Positions 5,551 through 22,021 of a DNA stretch of 25,616 nucleotides are shown here, piece by piece. The notes below the pieces were generated by a model, which had not been told where the DNA came from, did not search any database, and saw only the letters and a program-made list of their open reading frames with translations. Made by a program: the position numbers and the translations under genes. Source of the stretch: a virus. Positions within the stretch are counted from its first letter, which is position 1. Every line of letters begins with the position of its first letter. The stretch spans positions 1 to 25,616 of the IMG/VR virus record IMGVR_UViG_3300025586_000024; one strand, 5' to 3'.

Positions 5551-8500
5551 TTATCTCCCTGCTCTTGGGTCTCTTCTTGCCCTACCATAGGCGTTGGCAT
5601 TAAGGCTTATATCGCTTATTGCCCCTGCACCACGCTTTCTTAATGCCAAATCCATGCTTTCGCTATCAATTGCGTAAACATAATTATAAGTTTTGTGTAT
5701 AATCTGTTGTGGCTGTGCCTGCGGTAATCTGCCTGTGCTGTTTGCATAATTAAGCGCTGCAACCCCAATACTTCTTGTTGAACTGTCTTTGATTACATAT
5801 TCATCGTTTTTCAAAACACGCATTGTTTCATCGGAGGCTAAGCCACCATCGTGCATTTTTTTGATAAGACCGCCTGAATGAGCCATAGCGACTCCGCCAC
5901 CTGTTGGGAAATCTCCTACGCCTTCTATGCCAGAAGTACCGCCTCCCGCTCCTCCTGCACCCGCAGCTCCTACTGAAAGAACAGTTCCAAGCCAATCTAC
6001 ACTTTTTGCTGCACCCTTAAATGCTTGAAACATAACCCACTTAGCAGCCATATCAGCAATCATACGCTTTACTGAAGTTGTAAAAGCTCTCCAGTAGTCT
6101 CCAGCCGTTTTAAGTTCACCCATCATCGAATCAAAAAATACATCCGACATGGTATCTTTCATTGTATTGGCTGTTTCTTTAGTAAGGTCTTTCCATGTTG
6201 TAAATTCGTCTTTAAATTCTTCTGAAGCTTCCTTTAGCCCTTCAGCAATACCATCTGCCATCCCTTTAGGGGAGTCCGCTTCATCTGGTTTTGGCTTAGT
6301 TGCGGCTTCGACAATACCTAAGTTGGTAATCGCAGCTTGTATTGCTATTATTGAAGCAGCAAACCCCTCTAATTCTGCTTTAAAAAAAGGGCTTGTCTTA
6401 GCAAGATATTCTCTGGCATCGTAATAATCTTTTGCAAATTTTAAAAGTTTAGCATATTTTTCTCTACGGTCAGTGTTTTCTTTCTCCCATATTTTTATCC
6501 GTTTTTCATAACTGTCTTCTTCTGAATCTAATAATGTTTTTTCATAATCATCTTTAACTTTTGAAAGTTCATCTTTAACTTTATTTGCGTTTTTCTTAAC
6601 ATCTGCTTCTAACTTTTCTCTTTCATCAACACTGTCCTGTAATTTTTTAAATGCTTTAGTTTTTATATCTTCTATTTTTTCAGCGGCATCTTTTTCAATC
6701 TTTAATACTTCGTCAGTATATTTTTTGGTAATACGTGTTATTCCCTCAGCCAAATCAGAATAATTTCTCTTTCTTCTGTCCCATATTATCTTTAATCCGT
6801 TTGTTATTGTTTCTTGCTTACCATATTCTTCGCTTCCAATACCCTTTTTGTCCTCAATGCCTTTTAATATGCCTTTTGCAGTTTTATATTTTTTTTCAGT
6901 AGCATCTCTATCTTTTAATGCTTTCTCTAACACTTTAGTTTTATTTGTTTCGGTTAGCTTAAAAACTGATAAATTTTTAATAAAATCTTTACGTGCTTGC
7001 TCAGCAGCAGACGCTTGGTCGTATCTCAATTTTTCAAGTTCTTCAGTAGCGTCAGAAGACATCTTATAAGGTAATATTTCACCAGTAACTTTATAACTTT
7101 CTGGGTTAAGCACTGCTTCTAAAAGTTTTATATCTTCTAAAAGTTTTGGGTCTATAATTCTTTTAACACCAAGAAATTTGCCAAGTTTTCCTGCGAATGT
7201 TTTTTCTCTTGCTTCAAATGCAGCTTGTTCAGTTTTTTGGATTTCTAACCGCAATTTTAATTGTTCAAGCTGCTGCCTTTGTGCAGTCTCTATTGCATCT
7301 TTCTCTTCTTTAATAATGGCTTTTGTTATTTTTAATGTTTTCTTCAAAGAAATATTTTTATCATCTAATAATGGTATCAATGCTTTTTCTTTTTTTGCAT
7401 AATCAGCTAATATCAGTACTTTCTCTGCATCTGTTCTATTTGAATCAAGCATTAACACTTGAAGCTTTCTTATATCGTCAACCCTTTGGTTGCTCTTACT
7501 TGCAAGTTCTTCTATTGAGTCAGTAGCAGCATCTGTAGCTGCTTTTAGAGCCATATAACCACCAATTAATAATGTTATTCCGGTGATTATCCAATGAGAT
7601 TTTAAGAACATCAACGCTGTGTTAAAAGCACCAGTAGCTACGGTAGCATTAGTAGCCGCAACTTGAGCAGCAGTAAATCCAACAGCTACTTTAGCAGCAG
7701 CAGCAGCAGCTTTAACAGCAGCAGCAGCAGTAAGCATCATACGCACTTTTACAATAGCTAAAGTTATGCTTATTCCTATTAACAGCGGTGAAAGGTCTCT
7801 TAACGCAGCTACTAATGCTTGAATAGCTTTAGCTACCCCAATAATAATAGGCTTGGAAGCCTTTAAACTATCTATAAGAACTGCTTGGATTTGATGCCCT
7901 GTTAATATTAACTGATTTTGCATACCCATCATTGACCGTTCAAACATTACTTCAATAGCAGTAGTATCTTTTAAAGCCTCTGCCATCATGTTGAAAGCAT
8001 CAACGCCTTGGTCTAACATAACAACCAATGCTGCTGCCTCTCTACGGCGTAAACCAGCAAAGATATTCTGGAGGTCAAAGCCTCCCTTTGCTAAGGTCTC
8101 TAAAGACTCAAATAAAGTATGACTTGCAAGGCTTACATCCTCAAACTTAATCTCAACCGCTTTCAATTCCTTTCTTAATTTCGGCGTAGGCTCAATCAGT
8201 TTGCTAATTACACCCCTCAACCCAGTACCAATCGTAGAGGCTCTAATCCCAGCATTAGCCATCACAGCCATTGTAGCGGCAAGTTCTTCTATCGACATAC
8301 TAACTTTGTGCGCTATCGAAGCTACATAATTAAAAGTTGTGCCTAAATCATCAACCTCCAATTTAGAATAGTTCAATGCCGCACCGAGTATATTACCTAC
8401 TTTAGCAGCATCTTCAGCAGACAGCTTCCATACGTTAATTGCAGTAGTAAGAAATTTAACGACTTCGGTTGTGCTACCGCCAGTAGCAGTTGTAACCTTA

Positions 8501-9726
8501 TAAACAGTTTCGAGAGCTATGGCCGCATCAGCAGCATCCATACCAGCCTGACCAAGTATCTGTAATGCGTCTGTAGCTTCTTTTGCCCCCATTGTAGAAG
8601 ATTTAAAGGCGCTCATAGCCGCTTTTTCAAGCCTCTCGTACCCAGATGCAGTTGCCTGTGTTATAGCAGCGGCATCAACTAAGCCCTGATTAAAACTTAG
8701 AAAGTCACGAAGCCCTTGTGCTAATCCTTGTATCGTACCAAATATTATAGCTCCAGATGCAATCCAAGCAGCCTGAGACAACATCATATATTTGAAACCA
8801 GCTCCCCACCTTTCTTGAGCACGCCTTGCATCGCCCATTGCAGAGGTCTGTTTCCTAACTTGGTATTCAGAATGCTCAAGCCGTTTACTGAGTCTATTAA
8901 ACTGGTGTGCTTGTTTCTCCGTAGCCTTGCCACTACTTGCCATTGAAGTACTTAACTCTTTTACTTGCTGGCGAGTTAGCTTTGCTATTTTGGCATGGTC
9001 AGCAACTTTGAGATTCATCTTATGGAATTGGGCTGTTGTTGTACCAGCGGTAACGCCCATCTTTTTAAGTTCTTTAGACGGATACATAGCCTTTGTGTAC
9101 GTTTCTTTAAAATCTGTCATAGCCTTGGCTCTTGATGCTGTGGCTTTTTTAGAGTCTGCAAGCATTTTAGTGGTTGCTTGTTTACTGCTTTTTACTCTAC
9201 TAGCATAGCCTTTATTAAATTGTTCATTGCCAGCTTTAGCTATTTTCTGCTGTTCTGAGGCTGATTTTTTTTGGTCTGAAACTAATCTTGAGTTTGCCGC
9301 TGTTCCAACTTTTATTTTATCTTCAGCAACTTTTTTATTGAAGGCTGAGGTTTTTGCGTTTGCTGCTGTAATCTTTTTCTGGTCAGCAAGCATTTCTTTT
9401 GTTCTTACTTTTTGCGCTTTTACTCTGGCATTATAGTCTTTCTCAAATTGCTTATTGGCTGCTCTTGATGCTTTTCCCTGAGCAGCTATATTTTTATTAT
9501 GGGCTGCTAACATCTTGGTATTTGATTTCGCAGTAAACTTTTCTTTCGAGGACATCATCTTAGCGTTAAAAGCAGCAATAGTCGCAGATGATTTTTTAGA
9601 CATAGCAGCTAAACTTCTGTTTAAACCATCTACCTGTGCTTTAGCTTTTTCAATAGTAGCTGAAAGCTGTGCTAAATTTATCCTATAATCAAGGCCAATA
9701 CTATCTGATGCTGTTGTTATAGCCAT
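5551..9726 (-). CDS. Tail tape measure protein
   Basis: 1391 residues, the longest complete gene. Tape measure proteins set tail length and are ejected with DNA. The N-terminal 300 residues are Lys/Ala/Ser-rich coiled coil with an internal repeat (separate entry). Residues about 310-340 are hydrophobic, and about 345-590 match the TP901-type tape measure core (ATDALQILGQAGMDAADA, NYVASIAHKVSMSIEELAA, MANAGIRASTIGTGLRGV). Hydrophobic segments near 646-665 and 708-727 flank an alanine run. From about 800 to 1170 there is a long charged coiled coil. The C-terminus has the common glycine-rich ending (HSGGLIKKMHDGG, VLKNDEYVIKDSSTRSIG). ATG follows AAGG by 10 bases. If each residue spans about 0.15 nm in the tail, the length fits a tail of roughly 200 nm (inference). 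Confidence 0.95.
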   Translation of the reverse strand: MAITTASDSIGLDYRINLAQLSATIEKAKAQVDGLNRSLAAMSKKSSATIAAFNAKMMSSKEKFTAKSNTKMLAAHNKNIAAQGKASRAANKQFEKDYNARVKAQKVRTKEMLADQKKITAANAKTSAFNKKVAEDKIKVGTAANSRLVSDQKKSASEQQKIAKAGNEQFNKGYASRVKSSKQATTKMLADSKKATASRAKAMTDFKETYTKAMYPSKELKKMGVTAGTTTAQFHKMNLKVADHAKIAKLTRQQVKELSTSMASSGKATEKQAHQFNRLSKRLEHSEYQVRKQTSAMGDARRAQERWGAGFKYMMLSQAAWIASGAIIFGTIQGLAQGLRDFLSFNQGLVDAAAITQATASGYERLEKAAMSAFKSSTMGAKEATDALQILGQAGMDAADAAIALETVYKVTTATGGSTTEVVKFLTTAINVWKLSAEDAAKVGNILGAALNYSKLEVDDLGTTFNYVASIAHKVSMSIEELAATMAVMANAGIRASTIGTGLRGVISKLIEPTPKLRKELKAVEIKFEDVSLASHTLFESLETLAKGGFDLQNIFAGLRRREAAALVVMLDQGVDAFNMMAEALKDTTAIEVMFERSMMGMQNQLILTGHQIQAVLIDSLKASKPIIIGVAKAIQALVAALRDLSPLLIGISITLAIVKVRMMLTAAAAVKAAAAAAKVAVGFTAAQVAATNATVATGAFNTALMFLKSHWIITGITLLIGGYMALKAATDAATDSIEELASKSNQRVDDIRKLQVLMLDSNRTDAEKVLILADYAKKEKALIPLLDDKNISLKKTLKITKAIIKEEKDAIETAQRQQLEQLKLRLEIQKTEQAAFEAREKTFAGKLGKFLGVKRIIDPKLLEDIKLLEAVLNPESYKVTGEILPYKMSSDATEELEKLRYDQASAAEQARKDFIKNLSVFKLTETNKTKVLEKALKDRDATEKKYKTAKGILKGIEDKKGIGSEEYGKQETITNGLKIIWDRRKRNYSDLAEGITRITKKYTDEVLKIEKDAAEKIEDIKTKAFKKLQDSVDEREKLEADVKKNANKVKDELSKVKDDYEKTLLDSEEDSYEKRIKIWEKENTDRREKYAKLLKFAKDYYDAREYLAKTSPFFKAELEGFAASIIAIQAAITNLGIVEAATKPKPDEADSPKGMADGIAEGLKEASEEFKDEFTTWKDLTKETANTMKDTMSDVFFDSMMGELKTAGDYWRAFTTSVKRMIADMAAKWVMFQAFKGAAKSVDWLGTVLSVGAAGAGGAGGGTSGIEGVGDFPTGGGVAMAHSGGLIKKMHDGGLASDETMRVLKNDEYVIKDSSTRSIGVAALNYANSTGRLPQAQPQQIIHKTYNYVYAIDSESMDLALRKRGAGAISDISLNANAYGRARRDPRAGR
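7693..7730. repeat. GCT/GCA trinucleotide runs encoding polyalanine
   Basis: Two short in-frame runs of AGC/CAG units on the + strand (six units, then five) separated by TTTAA. On the minus strand they encode AAAAVKAAAAAAK in the tape measure, between two hydrophobic segments. A run like this could change in unit number by slippage without breaking the frame. Confidence 0.7.
9129..9570 (-). repeat. Four-copy ~38-residue coiled-coil repeat in tape measure N-terminus
   Basis: Residues 53-200 of the tape measure contain four diverged units. Each begins with F-N/E-K/A (F53, F94, F129, F170), followed 18-19 residues later by a K/E-M-L-A-D/H or RLVSD core (M72, M112, L148, M188), then KK. Spacing alternates 41, 35, 41. 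The best pair is 91-125 versus 167-201, offset by 76 residues (NKQFEKDYNARV versus NEQFNKGYASRV, then KEMLADQKK versus TKMLADSKK), so the region probably grew by duplication of a two-unit block. Confidence 0.75.
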
Positions 9727-9738
9727 TATATTAAAACC

Positions 9739-10122
9739 TTAGTTACCTTTAGTTCGGTGGTGTTTCGCAAAAAGCTCCACAATACCTTTCGTTCCAAGCA
9801 CGGTATCAACAGTGCCATCCAAAATATTCTTTTTTATTTTACTGCCTTGCTTGACAAGTTTCTTTATCTTTGATTTGCAAACTAACTTATTCTTTAAATG
9901 TAAATCGAGCATCTCTGACCGATTAAACCAGTAAGCCAAGCATTGACTTAAAAGAGATTCGTCTTTTTCGTTTTCATCATCAAGCCCTTTAACGAACTCA
10001 AGCCTTTCTTTATTTATAACTCTCGAAAAAGAATCCCATTCGTCTGAAAACCTTGAGAGCTTTTTATTCCTACACTCAGCATATGCCTTATCTACTCTAT
10101 CTGTGTAATCTTTTGGTATCAT
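9739..10122 (-). CDS. Small protein of unknown function between tail chaperone and tape measure
   Basis: 127 residues from ATG at 10122; an in-frame TTG at 10134 would add four residues, but its AGGG is only one base away, so ATG is preferred. The ATG overlaps the TGA of the -1 frameshift chaperone product as ATGA, which would couple its translation to the frameshifted ribosomes. The protein is charged and helical (SRFSDEWDSFSRVINKERLE), with a central CLAYWFNRSEMLDLHL and a basic middle KSKIKKLVKQGSKIKKN. I do not recognise a family. Its position between the GT-like gene and the tape measure suggests a role in tail assembly, perhaps a further tape-measure chaperone (inference). Confidence 0.7.
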   Translation of the reverse strand: MIPKDYTDRVDKAYAECRNKKLSRFSDEWDSFSRVINKERLEFVKGLDDENEKDESLLSQCLAYWFNRSEMLDLHLKNKLVCKSKIKKLVKQGSKIKKNILDGTVDTVLGTKGIVELFAKHHRTKGN

Positions 10123-10987
10123 AGATATTTCCAAGCCCTTTTATTTTGTTCTTCCGGCGTTGAAGCCTTGTTTTTTATATGCTTGCTACCGCCCATATTA
10201 TTCTTTTCATGCTCAAACTGTATGTTTTGAATAGTGCTCATTATAATAAGTTGAGCCAACGTAAATTTATCCTCAACCTCACCCGTACTCATCTTTAAGG
10301 CTTCAGCAGCACTATCTACTATAGAAAACTCTTGCAGATAGTCAGGTAATACTAATCCCTCGCCTTTTTTTAGCTTATTATCTGACGGGTGAGCATGTGC
10401 AAAAAATCTATAACACGCCCTCCAATACGGTCTTTTTCCATTTGTGCAAAGAATATTTTTTGAGCATCATAAAAAGAAATATTTTCTTCAATCCAATCTC
10501 TGCTTACTGACTTATCCTGTGCATTGCATATCGCATATATAACACCGACATAAATATCTAATACGGTGCTGACAATATTGCCGAGTCCGCCGTTTGCGAT
10601 AACATCCCTTATAAGCTCAACCATGTCCAGATACTCACTACCATCAGCTTCGCTATCAGATGCAGCAGAAACCTTGTTGAGTTTATCCTGAATGCTTTTA
10701 AATACAGGAATCAAATCAATCTTTTTAATCATTTCAGTAATAGCATCGAGAGCACAGGCCATTATTTTTTGGGTTTTGATATTAGACATGCGGACTTGGA
10801 ATGTCTTGTCGTCTATCTGGAATGTGTCTTGAGATAGCTCTGGTGTATGAGCTTCTGAGAACTCTTTTTCGGGTGGTTTCTCGGTAGGAGTATCTGCTTT
10901 TTTGCCAGATATTGTGCTTCTCTCACCTGAGTTTTTCTTTTTAAATATATCGTCTGCTGGCACTTCAACAGTTTTAGTATTCTTCAT
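10119..10987 (-). CDS. Tail assembly chaperone, -1 frameshift product (gpGT-like)
   Basis: Predicted 289-residue fusion: residues 1-196 of the short chaperone, then a -1 shift on T TTT TTG at 10406-10400 and 93 residues read from 10400 to 10122, stop TGA 10121-10119. The extension starts AHAHPSDNKLKKGEG, contains LPDYLQEFSIVDSAAEALKM, FTLAQLIIMSTIQNI and HEKNNMGGSKHIK, and ends NKRAWKYL. The -1 frame is open across the whole 279 bases, which otherwise would be a gap without a gene. In lambda the equivalent T part binds the tail tube protein while G binds the tape measure, in a low GT:G ratio. The ratio here cannot be read from sequence. Confidence 0.83.
10370..10987 (-). CDS. Tail assembly chaperone, short form (gpG-like)
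   Basis: 205 residues. It sits between the tail tube and tape measure genes, where siphophages encode the chaperone that coats the tape measure before tube growth. The first 55 residues are charged and low complexity (KKKNSGERSTIS, EKPPEKEFSE). The rest is a helical domain (KIMACALDAITEMIKKID, VELIRDVIANGGLGNIVSTV, DRIGGRVIDFLHMLTRQ). The ATG follows AAGGGGG by 10 bases. Translation stops at TAA 10372-10370, but a slippery site 27 bases before it can send ribosomes into the -1 frame to make a longer product (separate entry). Sequence family not recognised; the call rests on position and the frameshift. Confidence 0.75.
   Translation of the reverse strand: MKNTKTVEVPADDIFKKKNSGERSTISGKKADTPTEKPPEKEFSEAHTPELSQDTFQIDDKTFQVRMSNIKTQKIMACALDAITEMIKKIDLIPVFKSIQDKLNKVSAASDSEADGSEYLDMVELIRDVIANGGLGNIVSTVLDIYVGVIYAICNAQDKSVSRDWIEENISFYDAQKIFFAQMEKDRIGGRVIDFLHMLTRQIIS
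10400..10423 (-). promoter_or_regulatory. Programmed -1 frameshift signal (T TTT TTG plus upstream SD-like element)
   Basis: The heptamer TTTTTTG lies at 10406-10400 in the zero frame as T TTT TTG (codons 195-196), a canonical X XXY YYZ slippery sequence. Eleven bases upstream, GGAGGG (10423-10418) forms an internal Shine-Dalgarno-like element, the spacing known to stimulate -1 shifting in bacterial dnaX. I saw no obvious strong downstream stem. Confidence 0.82.
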
Positions 10988-11044: not shown

Positions 11045-11908
11045 TTAGTAACTCAGCATCCATTTCTTATAGAAATCATATCCAAGCGTACCATCATCAA
11101 AAGTCATTTCAACAGCCTGCGCTGACAACGTAATTGACGTTTCGTATTCCTCAGAAGCATCTTTAAAATCAAAATCGCCACCGCTGAAATTTCTTACTTT
11201 CGGGAAGTAGATAGCATGTTGAATTTTTATATTACCAGAACTATCCAGCTTGTCGTCCCAAAACAGCATTGCAGACCTGATTGTATCTGTTCCCATTCTA
11301 TCTATAAAGGCAGTTCTGGTAACTTTCTGAACGGTATCTTCATCTACCGTTGCGATTGGGAATCCAGCGCCTTCAAGAGTAAGCAGGCTTGCAGATAAGC
11401 TTTCAACAACAGCAAGATTAAACGAATCTTCAAGACTTGCCGAAGTAGGTGAAGCACATACGACAACATCATATTCGCTAAAACCTGGCGCTGGCGAAGC
11501 ACTAAGGCCAATGCTTTGGCGTGGAGCACCCATAAGAGAGCCAACCTTACACGCATTACCAGACAAGGTGTTGCGAATTGTCTGTCCCATAATAAGTGCC
11601 TCAACATACGGACTTAAATCGCTTGTGTTAAAAGTTATTTGTGCCGTTCTGTCAGTCTCCCAGAACTTACGAGATGTTTTAGGAATACCCCTTTTGAGTT
11701 CCCTCATTTCTTTTGTTACGGGGATTCTTGCTGACTGAATACTTCCACAATCATACCAGTTTGAAAGCGGATTCGATACATCTAACGCCAACACTGGAGC
11801 AGCATTCCCGACATAAGTGTTTTTATAGCTTGTGGATATCCACAATCTCGGTGATACAATTTCTACAAAATCAAGTTGTAAATTAGGTGAATCTTTAGTA
11901 GTAGCCAT
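11045..11908 (-). CDS. Probable major tail tube protein
   Basis: 287 residues, placed between the tail terminator region and the G/GT chaperone, the usual tube position. It is beta-rich with few long helices; motifs include PVLALDVSNPLSNWYDCGSI, RKFWETDRTAQITFNTSDLS and a C-terminal DFDFKDASEEYETSITLSAQ, a pattern in which strands end in a domain like those of other phage tube proteins. It has the strongest ribosome-binding site of the tail region (AAAAGGAGG, 12 bases before the ATG), which fits a protein needed in hundreds of copies. Function is assigned from position, composition and expression signal, not from a diagnostic motif. Confidence 0.72.
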   Translation of the reverse strand: MATTKDSPNLQLDFVEIVSPRLWISTSYKNTYVGNAAPVLALDVSNPLSNWYDCGSIQSARIPVTKEMRELKRGIPKTSRKFWETDRTAQITFNTSDLSPYVEALIMGQTIRNTLSGNACKVGSLMGAPRQSIGLSASPAPGFSEYDVVVCASPTSASLEDSFNLAVVESLSASLLTLEGAGFPIATVDEDTVQKVTRTAFIDRMGTDTIRSAMLFWDDKLDSSGNIKIQHAIYFPKVRNFSGGDFDFKDASEEYETSITLSAQAVEMTFDDGTLGYDFYKKWMLSY

Positions 11909-17409: not shown

Positions 17410-17784
17410 CTATCCAGTGATATCGTAAGTTACTGTTGACATTGGCGTTGCTGACCTACCAATATTGCCTCTATTTGATAATTGTATAGTTGACAAACTC
17501 CCAGTTAAAATAAATATGCCATCGGCTTTAACATCAAGAGATGCGTTTGCAGTAGTGCCTCCGCCTATCGTAACATTTATATCATTGTCAGGGGAGATCA
17601 TTACTGTCTTAGCAGATACCAATCCGGCAGGCATTATGCTAATATCAAGGCTACCATAAGAGATTTTGACATCATTTCGCCCACCTTCAGTAATAGTCGT
17701 ATCTACAGAAAAGTTCTTGAATCGAGTTTGTACATCACTATCGTACCCTCGGACATGCCCTGATATTTTTGTTTCTTTAGCCAT
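17410..17784 (-). CDS. Small beta-rich putative structural protein
   Basis: 124 residues. Its ATG overlaps the end of the upstream glycosyltransferase by 8 bases, with AAGG upstream, so the two genes are co-expressed. Sequence is made of short strands and turns (KISYGSLDISIMPAGLVSA, DINVTIGGGTTANASLDV, GIFILTGSLSTIQLSN) and has no hydrophobic signal. Looks like a small virion protein, perhaps a capsid or tail decoration. No family recognised. Confidence 0.6.
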   Translation of the reverse strand: MAKETKISGHVRGYDSDVQTRFKNFSVDTTITEGGRNDVKISYGSLDISIMPAGLVSAKTVMISPDNDINVTIGGGTTANASLDVKADGIFILTGSLSTIQLSNRGNIGRSATPMSTVTYDITG

Positions 17785-18829
17785 TGTTTATTACCTTTTT
17801 TATTAAATCCTCTACAACATGGATATGCTTTTCCATTGTGCATTCAGGAGCAAGTTTATCTACAGCAACCTTACAGGCTGGATACGCTTCCTCAAGCACT
17901 TCTGGTTTAATATCTTCTATCCTGTTAAAGGCTACTCCGATACCTGTTTCTTTAACGTACTTAGCTGTCGCTGGAGCACCTAATACTATAATAGGAAGAC
18001 CGCAAGCCAAATATTCCTGCTCTTTATTGGTTCTTGTCAGGTTTACCTGTTTTTGATCTAATTTTGGATTATTAAAAACGCAAAGTCCCCATTTCTTAAA
18101 TCGCAATGCTTCCATTAATTTTGGGTAAATCTTAGGCTGGTATGTGAAGCAGCCCAAATTTCCATAAGTATTATAGGCATCTCCATTCCCTGGTATCAAA
18201 TGCACTTCATTCCCATTGTTAACAAGCTGTTGTATAATAGGGTATAAATGTCTGTATTGAAATTGTTTGGTTTTATAAGGTGGGCTTTCTGCACCGCCTT
18301 CATAAACTAATCCACTCCGCTGCTCTATAGGCGGCATTGGCATCCTATGCCATTCATCATTACAATAGTGCTCCAACACGGCTGTTGGCTTATCTCGTAA
18401 CTGGTCTCTATGTAAATCAACGATAAATTCTTGTACTTCTTCGCTTACCATTAAAAGGCCATCACAATTGGTCATTGCTTTAAATTCATCAAGGGGCAAC
18501 ATACCCTGTCTGATACTATCTAAATCATGGGCATCAAGAATAATCTTGGCGTCAGGCTTGACTTCCCGTATCCAATTCAATGGATAGTTTGGCTCATTCG
18601 CATAGATAAAAATATCTGCGTCTATCTCTCTGATAGCATTCTTAAACTGAGTTTCATTGTGGTAAAAAGAAAACGAATCAAAGATGTCTGTCCCATAACT
18701 TATTTGATTTGCCACGCCGTGTATAGAATACCTACCAGTTTTTTTAAGAGCTTTAGCAATCTTAATAACCCTGATACATGCATGCCAGCTTGCATAACAA
18801 ATTTTTATTTTCTTAGTTTCTTCAGCCAT
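17777..18829 (-). CDS. GT-B glycosyltransferase (GT4-like)
   Basis: 350 residues. Two Rossmann halves: N-terminal KIKICYASWHACIRVIKIAK (8-27) with IILDAHDLDSIRQG (96-109), and a C-terminal nucleotide-sugar half with VHLIPGNGDAYN and the GT4-type motif KEQEYLACGLPIIVLGAP (269-286), in which E272 would bind the donor. A retaining GT4-type mechanism is likely; the sugar and acceptor are unknown. There is no membrane anchor, so it acts in the cytoplasm on nucleotide sugars. It is the third gene of a glycosylation cassette and overlaps the following putative virion gene, so it may glycosylate virion proteins or alter host surface sugars (inference). Confidence 0.8.
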   Translation of the reverse strand: MAEETKKIKICYASWHACIRVIKIAKALKKTGRYSIHGVANQISYGTDIFDSFSFYHNETQFKNAIREIDADIFIYANEPNYPLNWIREVKPDAKIILDAHDLDSIRQGMLPLDEFKAMTNCDGLLMVSEEVQEFIVDLHRDQLRDKPTAVLEHYCNDEWHRMPMPPIEQRSGLVYEGGAESPPYKTKQFQYRHLYPIIQQLVNNGNEVHLIPGNGDAYNTYGNLGCFTYQPKIYPKLMEALRFKKWGLCVFNNPKLDQKQVNLTRTNKEQEYLACGLPIIVLGAPATAKYVKETGIGVAFNRIEDIKPEVLEEAYPACKVAVDKLAPECTMEKHIHVVEDLIKKVINNG

Positions 18830-18891
18830 ATTATTTTATTTACCCTTTCCCCCAAACTATTGCTTTGGTTGGGAATTTAAGAATGTTAATA

Positions 18892-19134
18892 TTATTTAGT
18901 TAAGCGTGTTATATATTTTCTATGGAACCCAAAAGTCCTTGCAACCTTACGGAGCATAATGCCTTTATTAAGCATTCTTAACGCTTTTTCACGCTGTCCT
19001 TGCGCAAGGATTACGTATTCATCAATCTCCCAATCAGGCTGTTTAAGAGTTTTTAAAGACGGTATTTCTATATCTTCTTCCGCAGGAATATCTTCTTCTT
19101 CTTCTTTTTTTTCTTTGCTGTATTTTTTATTCAT
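18892..19134 (-). CDS. Small helix-turn-helix protein between two glycosyltransferase genes
   Basis: 80 residues. The N-terminal third is very charged (EKKEEEEDIPAEEDIEIP). The C-terminal part, QREKALRMLNKGIMLRKVAR and FGFHRKYITRLTK, has the spacing of a resolvase-type or transposase-type helix-turn-helix (residues about 47-80). It has a good SD (GAGAGGCG, inside the end of the upstream 960-residue gene) and its ATG is 5 bases after that stop. It could regulate the cassette, or be a small DNA-binding part of something larger. Function is inference. Confidence 0.6.
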   Translation of the reverse strand: MNKKYSKEKKEEEEDIPAEEDIEIPSLKTLKQPDWEIDEYVILAQGQREKALRMLNKGIMLRKVARTFGFHRKYITRLTK

Positions 19135-19138
19135 AATA

Positions 19139-22021
19139 TTATCGCCTCTCTTCTTTTCCTGTTGCTATTTTTATAATCTTCTCAGCTACTTTATCCCATG
19201 TGTGGTTCTCTAAAACTTTACGATACCCTGATGCTGCTATTTCTTCTCGCAGCTCAGAATCTTTTATAAGAATATCAATGTTTTCTATCATTTCGTATTC
19301 AGCTTCAAACCACAAGACTTCCTTGTTCCTAGTAAAGTAATTTTCAAGTCCTTTGCTATATTCTGTTAAAACGCAGCCCTTATTTGCCATATATCGCATA
19401 ATACGATCTGAAAAACTATCTTCATTTGAATCTGTATTATTTATTGCCAAAAGGATTCTGCCTTCAGCACACGCTTGATTAAAAGCTTCTCCGCAAACAG
19501 AGGCTTCGTAACCTTGCCCGTATTCCTTGACAGAATATCCAGCATCTTCAATGGCAGCTAATGCTACTTCTCTCTTGGTTGTTTTTTGCCCGATAAAAAC
19601 TACATCATATTTTTTCTCAACATTTTCAAATGGATGAAATTCTTTCGGGTCTATCCCTTGTAAAATGTGGTATATATCTGGCAAGCGGCATTCGCCTTCT
19701 GTTAATTCGTTATAAACCGCTTTAGCAGTCACAACGCTAAAATCTGCTGCTCCGGCCATCTTATAATACTCTTTATCGGTTTTCAAATGTGTTGCGGCAT
19801 CCATCATATACCAGCAAGTTTTCGCATTCCGGCCACAAGCTGTTATTGTTTTGGCTGTAACCCCATTGCATTTACAAAAGATAATTAAATCGTAATTTGC
19901 TGAGGACTTTACTATCTCTTGATTTGTTTTCTCCCATCCTATTTTGCTTGCAACTGTTCTGTAATTAAATCCGTCAACATGGTAGCCAGCACTATCAAAG
20001 GCTTTGGCGAAGGGTATGTTGGTTCCGCCTGCAACATCAAAAACACCGACCATGCCTATTCTTTTGATTGGAATTATACCGTTGCTGATATTCATTTTTT
20101 TAAGCTCGGCAGTAGTTGGGGATGCACACGTTGGTATAATGCCCCCGTTTGGCAATTTACAAAATCTACGTTCTTCACTAATAGCATATTCCCCACGTTT
20201 TTTTAAAATTGGTTTTTTAAAAATCAGCATATCAGAAACATTTGCCACAAAGTTAAACCCATTCTTAGTCATATCTTTAATAACGGTTTCGTTAGGCACT
20301 AAATGTATGTGTGCGTGAGCATCTGTTTTGCCAACATAAACAAACATTTCGCCATTATTTTTTAAAAGCCTATAACATTCTTTCATTGATTGCTGATAGA
20401 CTTCTTCTGGCAAATGCTCGTAAAAATCTATACAATGTATATTGTCATAATATCCATCAGGTTTGTTAATATTCTGGCAATCGCCTATCCATATATCTTC
20501 TAAGTTAGGCATTAGTTTTTTATAAAAAGGAATTGCGTTTGAAAGTCCGTGATTAAAATCTAAAGCATCAATTTTTACATCTGGATACTTCTGGCTTAAT
20601 TGATAAAGGGTTTTACCGTTCTGAAAACCTATATCTAAAACTCTTCCATTAATTTCAATACCGTCAAACCAATTCTTCCATCTATCTATATAGCCTTGGG
20701 GCCAAGGGTCTGCGTATTTATCTAAAAGTGTTTGCTCAGAAGTAATATTCTTAATCCAATCCTCTGATTTCTTTGAATATGAATCTGGAGAATATTCAAA
20801 TGTTTCTCCCTTCGCATTTATATATTTGTTAGCATCCATTTTAATTTCTATAGGCTTGTCTAACCCTTTGAATTTAAGGCATTCATCGCAAAGGCAAGCA
20901 GGGTCATGCCCGAAGCCATTGGCGCTAAAATCGTGCGATCTGCTTGAGATAATCTTTTCGTTATTTTGCAAAATAGGCATTGAGCCAACGTTATGGATTA
21001 AACCGCCTCCGTCAAATCTTTTGCCATACATCTCCCCAAGCAACTGGTTAATATAAACCATCGCTTCTTTATACAGTGTCTCCGGCTGGTCATTGTACAT
21101 GCCTAATCCGGTTTTCATAAAAACAACATCTGCCTCAAGAGGGTTATCATCAACCATGTGCCTCTGTTCTTCATGTCCATAAATAAAACTTGGGCATCCG
21201 CATTGTACACTCAGGTGTGTCGGGCCGCTTTGAGAACTTATCGAACATAGCGCTGAATTTAACATTGCGATTGTAATATCAAGGCTTTGGGATATATCGA
21301 TATCAGCTAAATCAATAACATCTCCATATTCCTTAGCTATCCCCAAAAGGCAATTGCCATCTTTTGTGCCGCCAATTGCGAAAGTAACTTTATCCCCGAA
21401 CTGATCGTAAAGCCTTTCAAATAGATTCTCCCAATATGATCTCGGCCAGTTGTTTGAAGGCAAGGGGTTTCTTAAATCTTCACAATGCCGTATCTGGTTA
21501 TTCACAACGTCTAAGAAGGTTTTTCTATGCACCTCACGAGCGAACACAATCACAACAGGCTTGCCACCATGCTGTTGAATTAACCTCTTGCTTTCTGTAA
21601 CAGCATTTGCTGATGCCGTTAATTTGTCAAAGAGCACGTGTTTATTATTGCGAAGTATTTTGTTAAAGCCCCTTGGAGGCTTAGTCCAGACAATATTTTG
21701 AGATATATATTTACTCTCAAGCTTATCTTTAAAATATTTTATAATCTTCGCATACATCTTTTGTCCGCATAAAGATTCAAAACAATCGCAATCGTACTTT
21801 TCTTTCGTAAACCAATCTGGCAAACTCCAAAATTCATCTGCAATCCCGTTTTGGTACAATGAATGCCTACCTTTATAACTCGCCACAATGATTTTACGGT
21901 CTTTATATTGTTGCCTGAGCCATCTTACATGTGGCATCCAGTGAGATAATTCCCACCCGAACTCACCTAAAAATGGCCCTGCAAAAACAACTCCGTTTGA
22001 TTCTATTTTTTGGTCACTCAT
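19139..22021 (-). CDS. Trifunctional glycosyltransferase-methyltransferase-glycosyltransferase fusion
   Basis: 960 residues in one open frame; ATG follows GGGGGGA by 11 bases. Residues 10-330 form a GT9-like GT-B domain: GPFLGEFGWELSHWMPHVRW at the start and ISSQSGPTHLSVQCGCPSF (261-279) near the donor site. A linker with a small cysteine cluster follows (C376, C378, C381 in DPACLCDECLKF). Residues 430-605 are a class I SAM-dependent methyltransferase: VLDIGFQNGKTLYQL (motif I), then D488 in KIDALDFN, and IHCIDFYEHLPEEVYQQSMK. Residues 653-955 are a CgeB/DUF3880-like glycosyltransferase: IGMVGVFDVAGGTNIPFA, IYHILQGIDPKEFHPF, SDRIMRYMANKGCVLTEYS and a final GYRKVLENHTWDKVAEKI. It would transfer two sugars and methylate a sugar or protein in the cytoplasm. 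Substrates are unknown. Confidence 0.8.
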   Translation of the reverse strand: MSDQKIESNGVVFAGPFLGEFGWELSHWMPHVRWLRQQYKDRKIIVASYKGRHSLYQNGIADEFWSLPDWFTKEKYDCDCFESLCGQKMYAKIIKYFKDKLESKYISQNIVWTKPPRGFNKILRNNKHVLFDKLTASANAVTESKRLIQQHGGKPVVIVFAREVHRKTFLDVVNNQIRHCEDLRNPLPSNNWPRSYWENLFERLYDQFGDKVTFAIGGTKDGNCLLGIAKEYGDVIDLADIDISQSLDITIAMLNSALCSISSQSGPTHLSVQCGCPSFIYGHEEQRHMVDDNPLEADVVFMKTGLGMYNDQPETLYKEAMVYINQLLGEMYGKRFDGGGLIHNVGSMPILQNNEKIISSRSHDFSANGFGHDPACLCDECLKFKGLDKPIEIKMDANKYINAKGETFEYSPDSYSKKSEDWIKNITSEQTLLDKYADPWPQGYIDRWKNWFDGIEINGRVLDIGFQNGKTLYQLSQKYPDVKIDALDFNHGLSNAIPFYKKLMPNLEDIWIGDCQNINKPDGYYDNIHCIDFYEHLPEEVYQQSMKECYRLLKNNGEMFVYVGKTDAHAHIHLVPNETVIKDMTKNGFNFVANVSDMLIFKKPILKKRGEYAISEERRFCKLPNGGIIPTCASPTTAELKKMNISNGIIPIKRIGMVGVFDVAGGTNIPFAKAFDSAGYHVDGFNYRTVASKIGWEKTNQEIVKSSANYDLIIFCKCNGVTAKTITACGRNAKTCWYMMDAATHLKTDKEYYKMAGAADFSVVTAKAVYNELTEGECRLPDIYHILQGIDPKEFHPFENVEKKYDVVFIGQKTTKREVALAAIEDAGYSVKEYGQGYEASVCGEAFNQACAEGRILLAINNTDSNEDSFSDRIMRYMANKGCVLTEYSKGLENYFTRNKEVLWFEAEYEMIENIDILIKDSELREEIAASGYRKVLENHTWDKVAEKIIKIATGKEERR

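Follow-up and report, generated by a model that had tools for sequence, protein, structure and literature searches.

Programmed -1 frameshifting is strongly supported, on sequence grounds, at one locus of a tailed phage. Ribosomes slipping on a T_TTT_TTG heptamer, helped by an internal Shine-Dalgarno-like sequence (SD) and probably by a downstream stem, would attach a conserved 93-codon extension to a 205-residue protein and yield a fusion resembling the GT tail assembly chaperone; a probability of about 0.9 is assigned to this reading. The locus is contained in a virus record of 25,616 bases, hereafter called the window, a phage fragment whose genes are mainly located on the minus strand. It represents a well-supported, unusually complete and previously unannotated example of the G/GT type, whose mechanism is already known from lambda and P2, and the gene model is corrected by a 93-residue domain which is missed by ORF calling.

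Layout of the locus and frameshift signal

The zero-frame, G-like gene (205 aa, 10987..10370, minus strand) is conserved in four diverged relatives, and its stop codon is located at 10372..10370. The slippery heptamer is found in the X_XXY_YYZ phase at 10406..10400 (minus strand), and the SD-like sequence GGAGGG is found 11 nt before it, at 10423..10418 on the same strand, where it forms the strongest anti-SD duplex of the whole G-T reading frame (-9.8 kcal/mol). The T-like extension in the -1 frame (10119..10400, minus strand) is open for 93 codons, from 10400 to 10122, and is closed by a TGA at 10121..10119; joined to the 5' part of the zero-frame gene, it would give a fusion of 289 aa. Without the extension, an intergenic gap of 247 nt would be left. 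The stop of T overlaps the ATG of the next gene, at 10122, as ATGA, an arrangement also found in two of the relatives, L007 and L009. A preliminary description of this DNA had reported the heptamer in the zero frame, GGAGGG eleven bases upstream, 93 open codons across a gap of more than 200 bases and the ATGA overlap; all of these elements, and all of its coordinates, were found to be correct.

In order to evaluate the signal against its background, all in-phase X_XXY_YYZ heptamers (Y = A or T) contained in the 25 predicted genes of the window were collected. Among the 44 heptamers found, only that of the G-like gene is followed by at least 93 open -1 codons, the next best being followed by 30, and the same heptamer is the only one to have, at the right place, a SD duplex of -9 kcal/mol or lower. 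The -1 frame is open for at least 93 codons at about 1% of the codons of the window. TTG is a minority leucine codon in this phage (77 of 482), and SD sites precede many of its gene starts, such as AAAGGAGGTGA and AAAAGGAGG. A SD stimulator located 9-14 nt upstream, the spacing described for -1 stimulation, is known for dnaX, and its occurrence among IS elements is estimated at 56% (PMC5009743). Two of the three parts of this bacterial signal are evident at the locus, namely the in-phase X_XXY_YYZ heptamer and a SD-like sequence within the 9-14 nt range, the distance being 11 nt in five lineages.

The -1 part was also evaluated as a protein lacking a start of its own. It is conserved, and its first ATG, GTG or TTG codon in the window corresponds to residue 37, none being present in the first 36 residues; therefore, the whole conserved domain can be made only as a fusion. 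This bears on the explanation that T is a separately started gene, as annotated for the T-like part in some P2-like phages, or else that an error of sequencing or assembly has produced the frame break. The late start codon argues against the former and, against the latter, the four diverged contigs and a near-identical one show the same frame relation; both versions are extremely unlikely and largely refuted.

Conservation in related contigs

Four query proteins were used to search IMG/VR for relatives: G, T, the candidate tail tube protein and the tape measure protein. The search returned a near-identical contig (L002, 99.98% identical) and four diverged lineages, in which the identity of G is 73% (L006), 55% (L009), 51% (L023) and 46% (L007). 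In this comparison, which the preliminary description had proposed, the signal proved to be kept throughout: all four diverged lineages contain T_TTT_TTG in phase and at the same place, with a SD-like site 11 nt upstream of it, and their -1 extension is open for 88-93 codons. GGAGG itself is kept in three of the four (as GGAGGG, GGAGGC and GGAGGC), while L007 has the weaker GGTGGC/AGGTGG. The two codons of the heptamer are identical, silent sites included, in all five lineages; of 54 amino-acid-invariant columns of G (Met and Trp excluded), 11 are codon-identical, and both heptamer codons are among them.

The T part shares 49-80% identity with its relatives. Between the window and L006, codon positions 1, 2 and 3 differ with frequencies of 0.22, 0.12 and 0.38, with a dN of 0.16, a dS of 1.26 and a dN/dS ratio of about 0.13. 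By these measures, T is conserved as a protein and subject to purifying selection.

Conservation of the heptamer bears also on the origin of the fusion, which might be produced by transcriptional slippage on the run of six T, rather than by the ribosome. A homopolymer run is indeed present, and longer poly-T runs are known to cause slippage (PMC3711429). The run is, however, limited to six T, while the same review places transcriptional realignment at T runs above 8 (PMC3711429); moreover, the codon phase, the final G and the SD 11 nt upstream are conserved, although transcriptional slippage would need none of them. This origin is considered very unlikely, and ribosomal frameshifting is retained as the source of the fusion.

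A candidate stem downstream of the heptamer

The preliminary description had noticed no obvious downstream stem. When the 127 nt past the heptamer were folded, a perfect 9-bp helix was predicted, made up of a 5' arm CUCACCCGU (10393..10385, minus strand), which starts 6 nt past the heptamer, and a 3' arm ACGGGUGAG (10286..10278, minus strand), which closes a 116-nt domain containing an inner hairpin. The 9-bp helix is shared by L006. In L007 a different helix, 12 bp long and spanning 80 nt, starts 7 nt after the heptamer and is formed by UGACCAGAGCGA and UUGCUUUGGUCG; in L009 and L023 a hairpin spanning 17 nt starts 6 nt after the heptamer, AUCACC being paired there with GGUGAU or GGUGGU. In each of the five lineages the predicted stem therefore begins 6-7 nt after the heptamer, and its closure measures 116 nt in two of them, 80 nt in a third and 17 nt in two more; the arms of the window and of L007 are unrelated, and 3' arms are not homologous among the relatives. 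Rfam searches gave no match near the cut-off of any family.

Two controls were used, one based on every second position of the contig, the other, stricter, on sequences in which proteins are kept and synonymous codons are redrawn; the figures obtained from both are inflated, as the search range was set after the fold of the window had been seen. With this limit, helices as good as that of the window were found at 0.0008-0.0014 of the control positions (pairing distance up to 150-300) and helices as good as that of L007 at 0-0.0011 (pairing distance 100-300), while in the synonymous-codon control stems as good were obtained at a frequency of 0.032 for the window, 0.033 for L006, which is not independent, and 0.061 for L007. 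The folding energy of the domain was also compared with protein-preserving shuffles: it is matched in none of 400 for L006 and in 22 of 400, a borderline value, for the window, and is ordinary in L007 and L009.

These results leave room for a real frameshift stimulated by the SD and the heptamer alone, the stem being a by-product of the coding sequence. Synonymous codons yield equal stems in 3% of the cases for the window and in 6% for L007, the hairpins of L009 and L023 are only 6 bp long and are matched at 3-4% of the control positions, and the P2-like phages KS5, KS14 and KL3 have no predicted downstream hairpin (PMC3091744). Against this explanation, the stems start 6-7 nt after the heptamer in five lineages out of five, with unrelated arms in the window and in L007, and the folding of L006 is better than that of 400 out of 400 protein-preserving shuffles. 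The by-product explanation is accordingly judged quite possible, at slightly less than even odds, and a stimulatory stem at the heptamer of the window is considered slightly more probable than its absence. The statement that no stem is obvious is thus probably wrong, given a 9-bp candidate 6 nt past the heptamer (about 0.001 against positions, 0.03-0.06 against synonymous codons, both subject to the inflation described above).

The signal had been regarded as an interesting variant, with a SD and no stem. The SD part of this view holds, while its stemless part is weakened by the candidate stem, which would make the signal an ordinary three-part bacterial one, composed of SD, heptamer and stem. 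According to a further proposal, tentative and rather unlikely, the level of frameshifting in this phage group is determined by a stem having its 5' arm at a fixed distance of 6-7 nt from the heptamer and a 3' arm of variable location. Were it true, selection would act on where the stem lies rather than on its sequence, and the stop codon of G would be contained within the long-range form, which could make termination and frameshifting influence each other. The five lineages, in which the heptamer and the SD spacing are fixed and the downstream RNA structure varies, form a series useful for the study of how phages set the G:GT ratio.

Proposed mechanism

From the features described above we infer that frameshifting occurs at the locus, at a ratio by which most ribosomes would terminate at 10370 and release the 205-aa G-like protein. 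When a ribosome is located on T_TTT_TTG, the internal GGAGGG would pair with the anti-SD of its 16S rRNA, and the stem beginning 6 nt downstream would probably resist unwinding; both may act as stimulators. The tRNAs on TTT and TTG would then slip back by one base, and reading would continue for 93 codons, to give the GT-like fusion of 289 aa. If the proteins act as in lambda, the tape measure protein would be bound by both G and GT, and the tail tube protein would be recruited by the T domain.

Gene neighborhood and identity of the putative chaperone

A short product and a -1 fusion encoded just before the tape measure gene are the arrangement of lambda and of many tailed phages (PMC5009743). 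The tape measure protein (1391 aa, 5551..9726, minus strand) is identified by PF10145 (6e-29) and by many PHROG tape measure families. On the other side of the locus, the tail tube position is occupied by a 287-aa protein (11045..11908, minus strand), conserved in the relatives; searches gave only weak family hits for it, none of them a confident match to a tail tube family. The locus is therefore placed between a putative tail tube gene and the tape measure gene, as in G/GT systems, with one gene intervening before the latter. This gene (127 aa, 9739..10122, minus strand), whose start overlaps the stop of T, is conserved in the relatives and belongs to no known family. In L006, a further ORF of 95 aa (L006:4993-5280) is inserted before its counterpart.

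Neither G nor T gave anything significant in searches of Pfam, PHROGs, NCBIfam and PDB sequences. No relative of the fusion was found among annotated phages, nor were any found in GTDB genomes searched with GT and tail tube profiles, and no significant similarity was revealed when G and T were compared with the chaperone of a Vibrio phage and with Xylophilus phage Lumi. ORFs of the G/GT type from different phages are reported to share little similarity (PMC5009743). The name of chaperone extension, used in the preliminary description, is thus strongly supported in its frameshift part, as five lineages share both signal and extension. From the order and layout of the genes, no family model matching either protein, we infer that the gene is a tail assembly chaperone of the G/GT type. 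The G/GT scheme would so be extended to a group of uncultured phages for whose G and T proteins no relatives were found in the annotated phages and GTDB genomes searched.

In the structural gene region of the window, two large genes of 350 and 960 aa are located at 17777-22021 (minus strand); from their sequence they look like enzymes of the glycosyltransferase/methyltransferase type. An in-phase A_AAA_AAG is found at 17801 (minus strand), eight codons before the end of the gene at 18829..17777; 30 open -1 codons follow it, and its SD is weaker (-5.8). It is a possible, unsupported candidate for a second shift site.

Comparison with known frameshift systems

The closest likeness is to gene E of P2, where E+E' is produced at the same heptamer, TTTTTTG (PMC3091744), with Phe-Leu at the end of the short product and the tape measure gene following closely downstream. 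A short similar motif surrounds the shift site, AGKVVGFL in P2 against GGRVIDFL in the window and GGKVIDFL in relatives. P2 differs from the present locus in the lack of a SD of the GGAGG type 11 nt before the heptamer and in the length of its E protein, 91 aa against the 205 aa of G; for P2, moreover, no hairpin past the heptamer is reported (PMC3091744). A profile comparison of E/E' with the present gene gave a suggestive match at the shift site, which is not significant, and PF06528, matched by P2 itself at 1e-23, is absent from the window and from the four relatives; the gene was therefore not assigned to the P2 GpE family. SD-like stretches, GGTGGAG and GGAGG, are found 7-10 nt upstream of TTTTTTG in some E genes of P2-like phages (L041 and L043), and the combination of a SD with a T-run heptamer is therefore probably not unique.

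The bacterial dnaX and IS element signals share with the locus a SD 9-14 nt upstream and an X_XXY_YYZ heptamer; they also have a structure a few nt downstream (PMC5009743), to which the candidate stem may correspond. They differ in having an A-run heptamer instead of a T-run, whereas here the candidate stem, possibly an unusual one, is long-range (116 nt) and the signal is located in a phage tail gene.

As in lambda, a short product and a low-level -1 fusion would be encoded between tail tube and tape measure genes (PMC5009743). The heptamer of lambda is instead G_GGA_AAG, with no internal SD at the corresponding place, and no sequence similarity was detected between lambda G/GT and the present G/T. 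A lambda-type site was observed in Vibrio phage K120 g1 (L030, 3305-4101), where an annotated tail assembly chaperone ends in an in-phase G_GGA_AAG and an open -1 frame precedes the tape measure gene, a layout which, as read from the sequence, corresponds to an unannotated lambda-type GT fusion.
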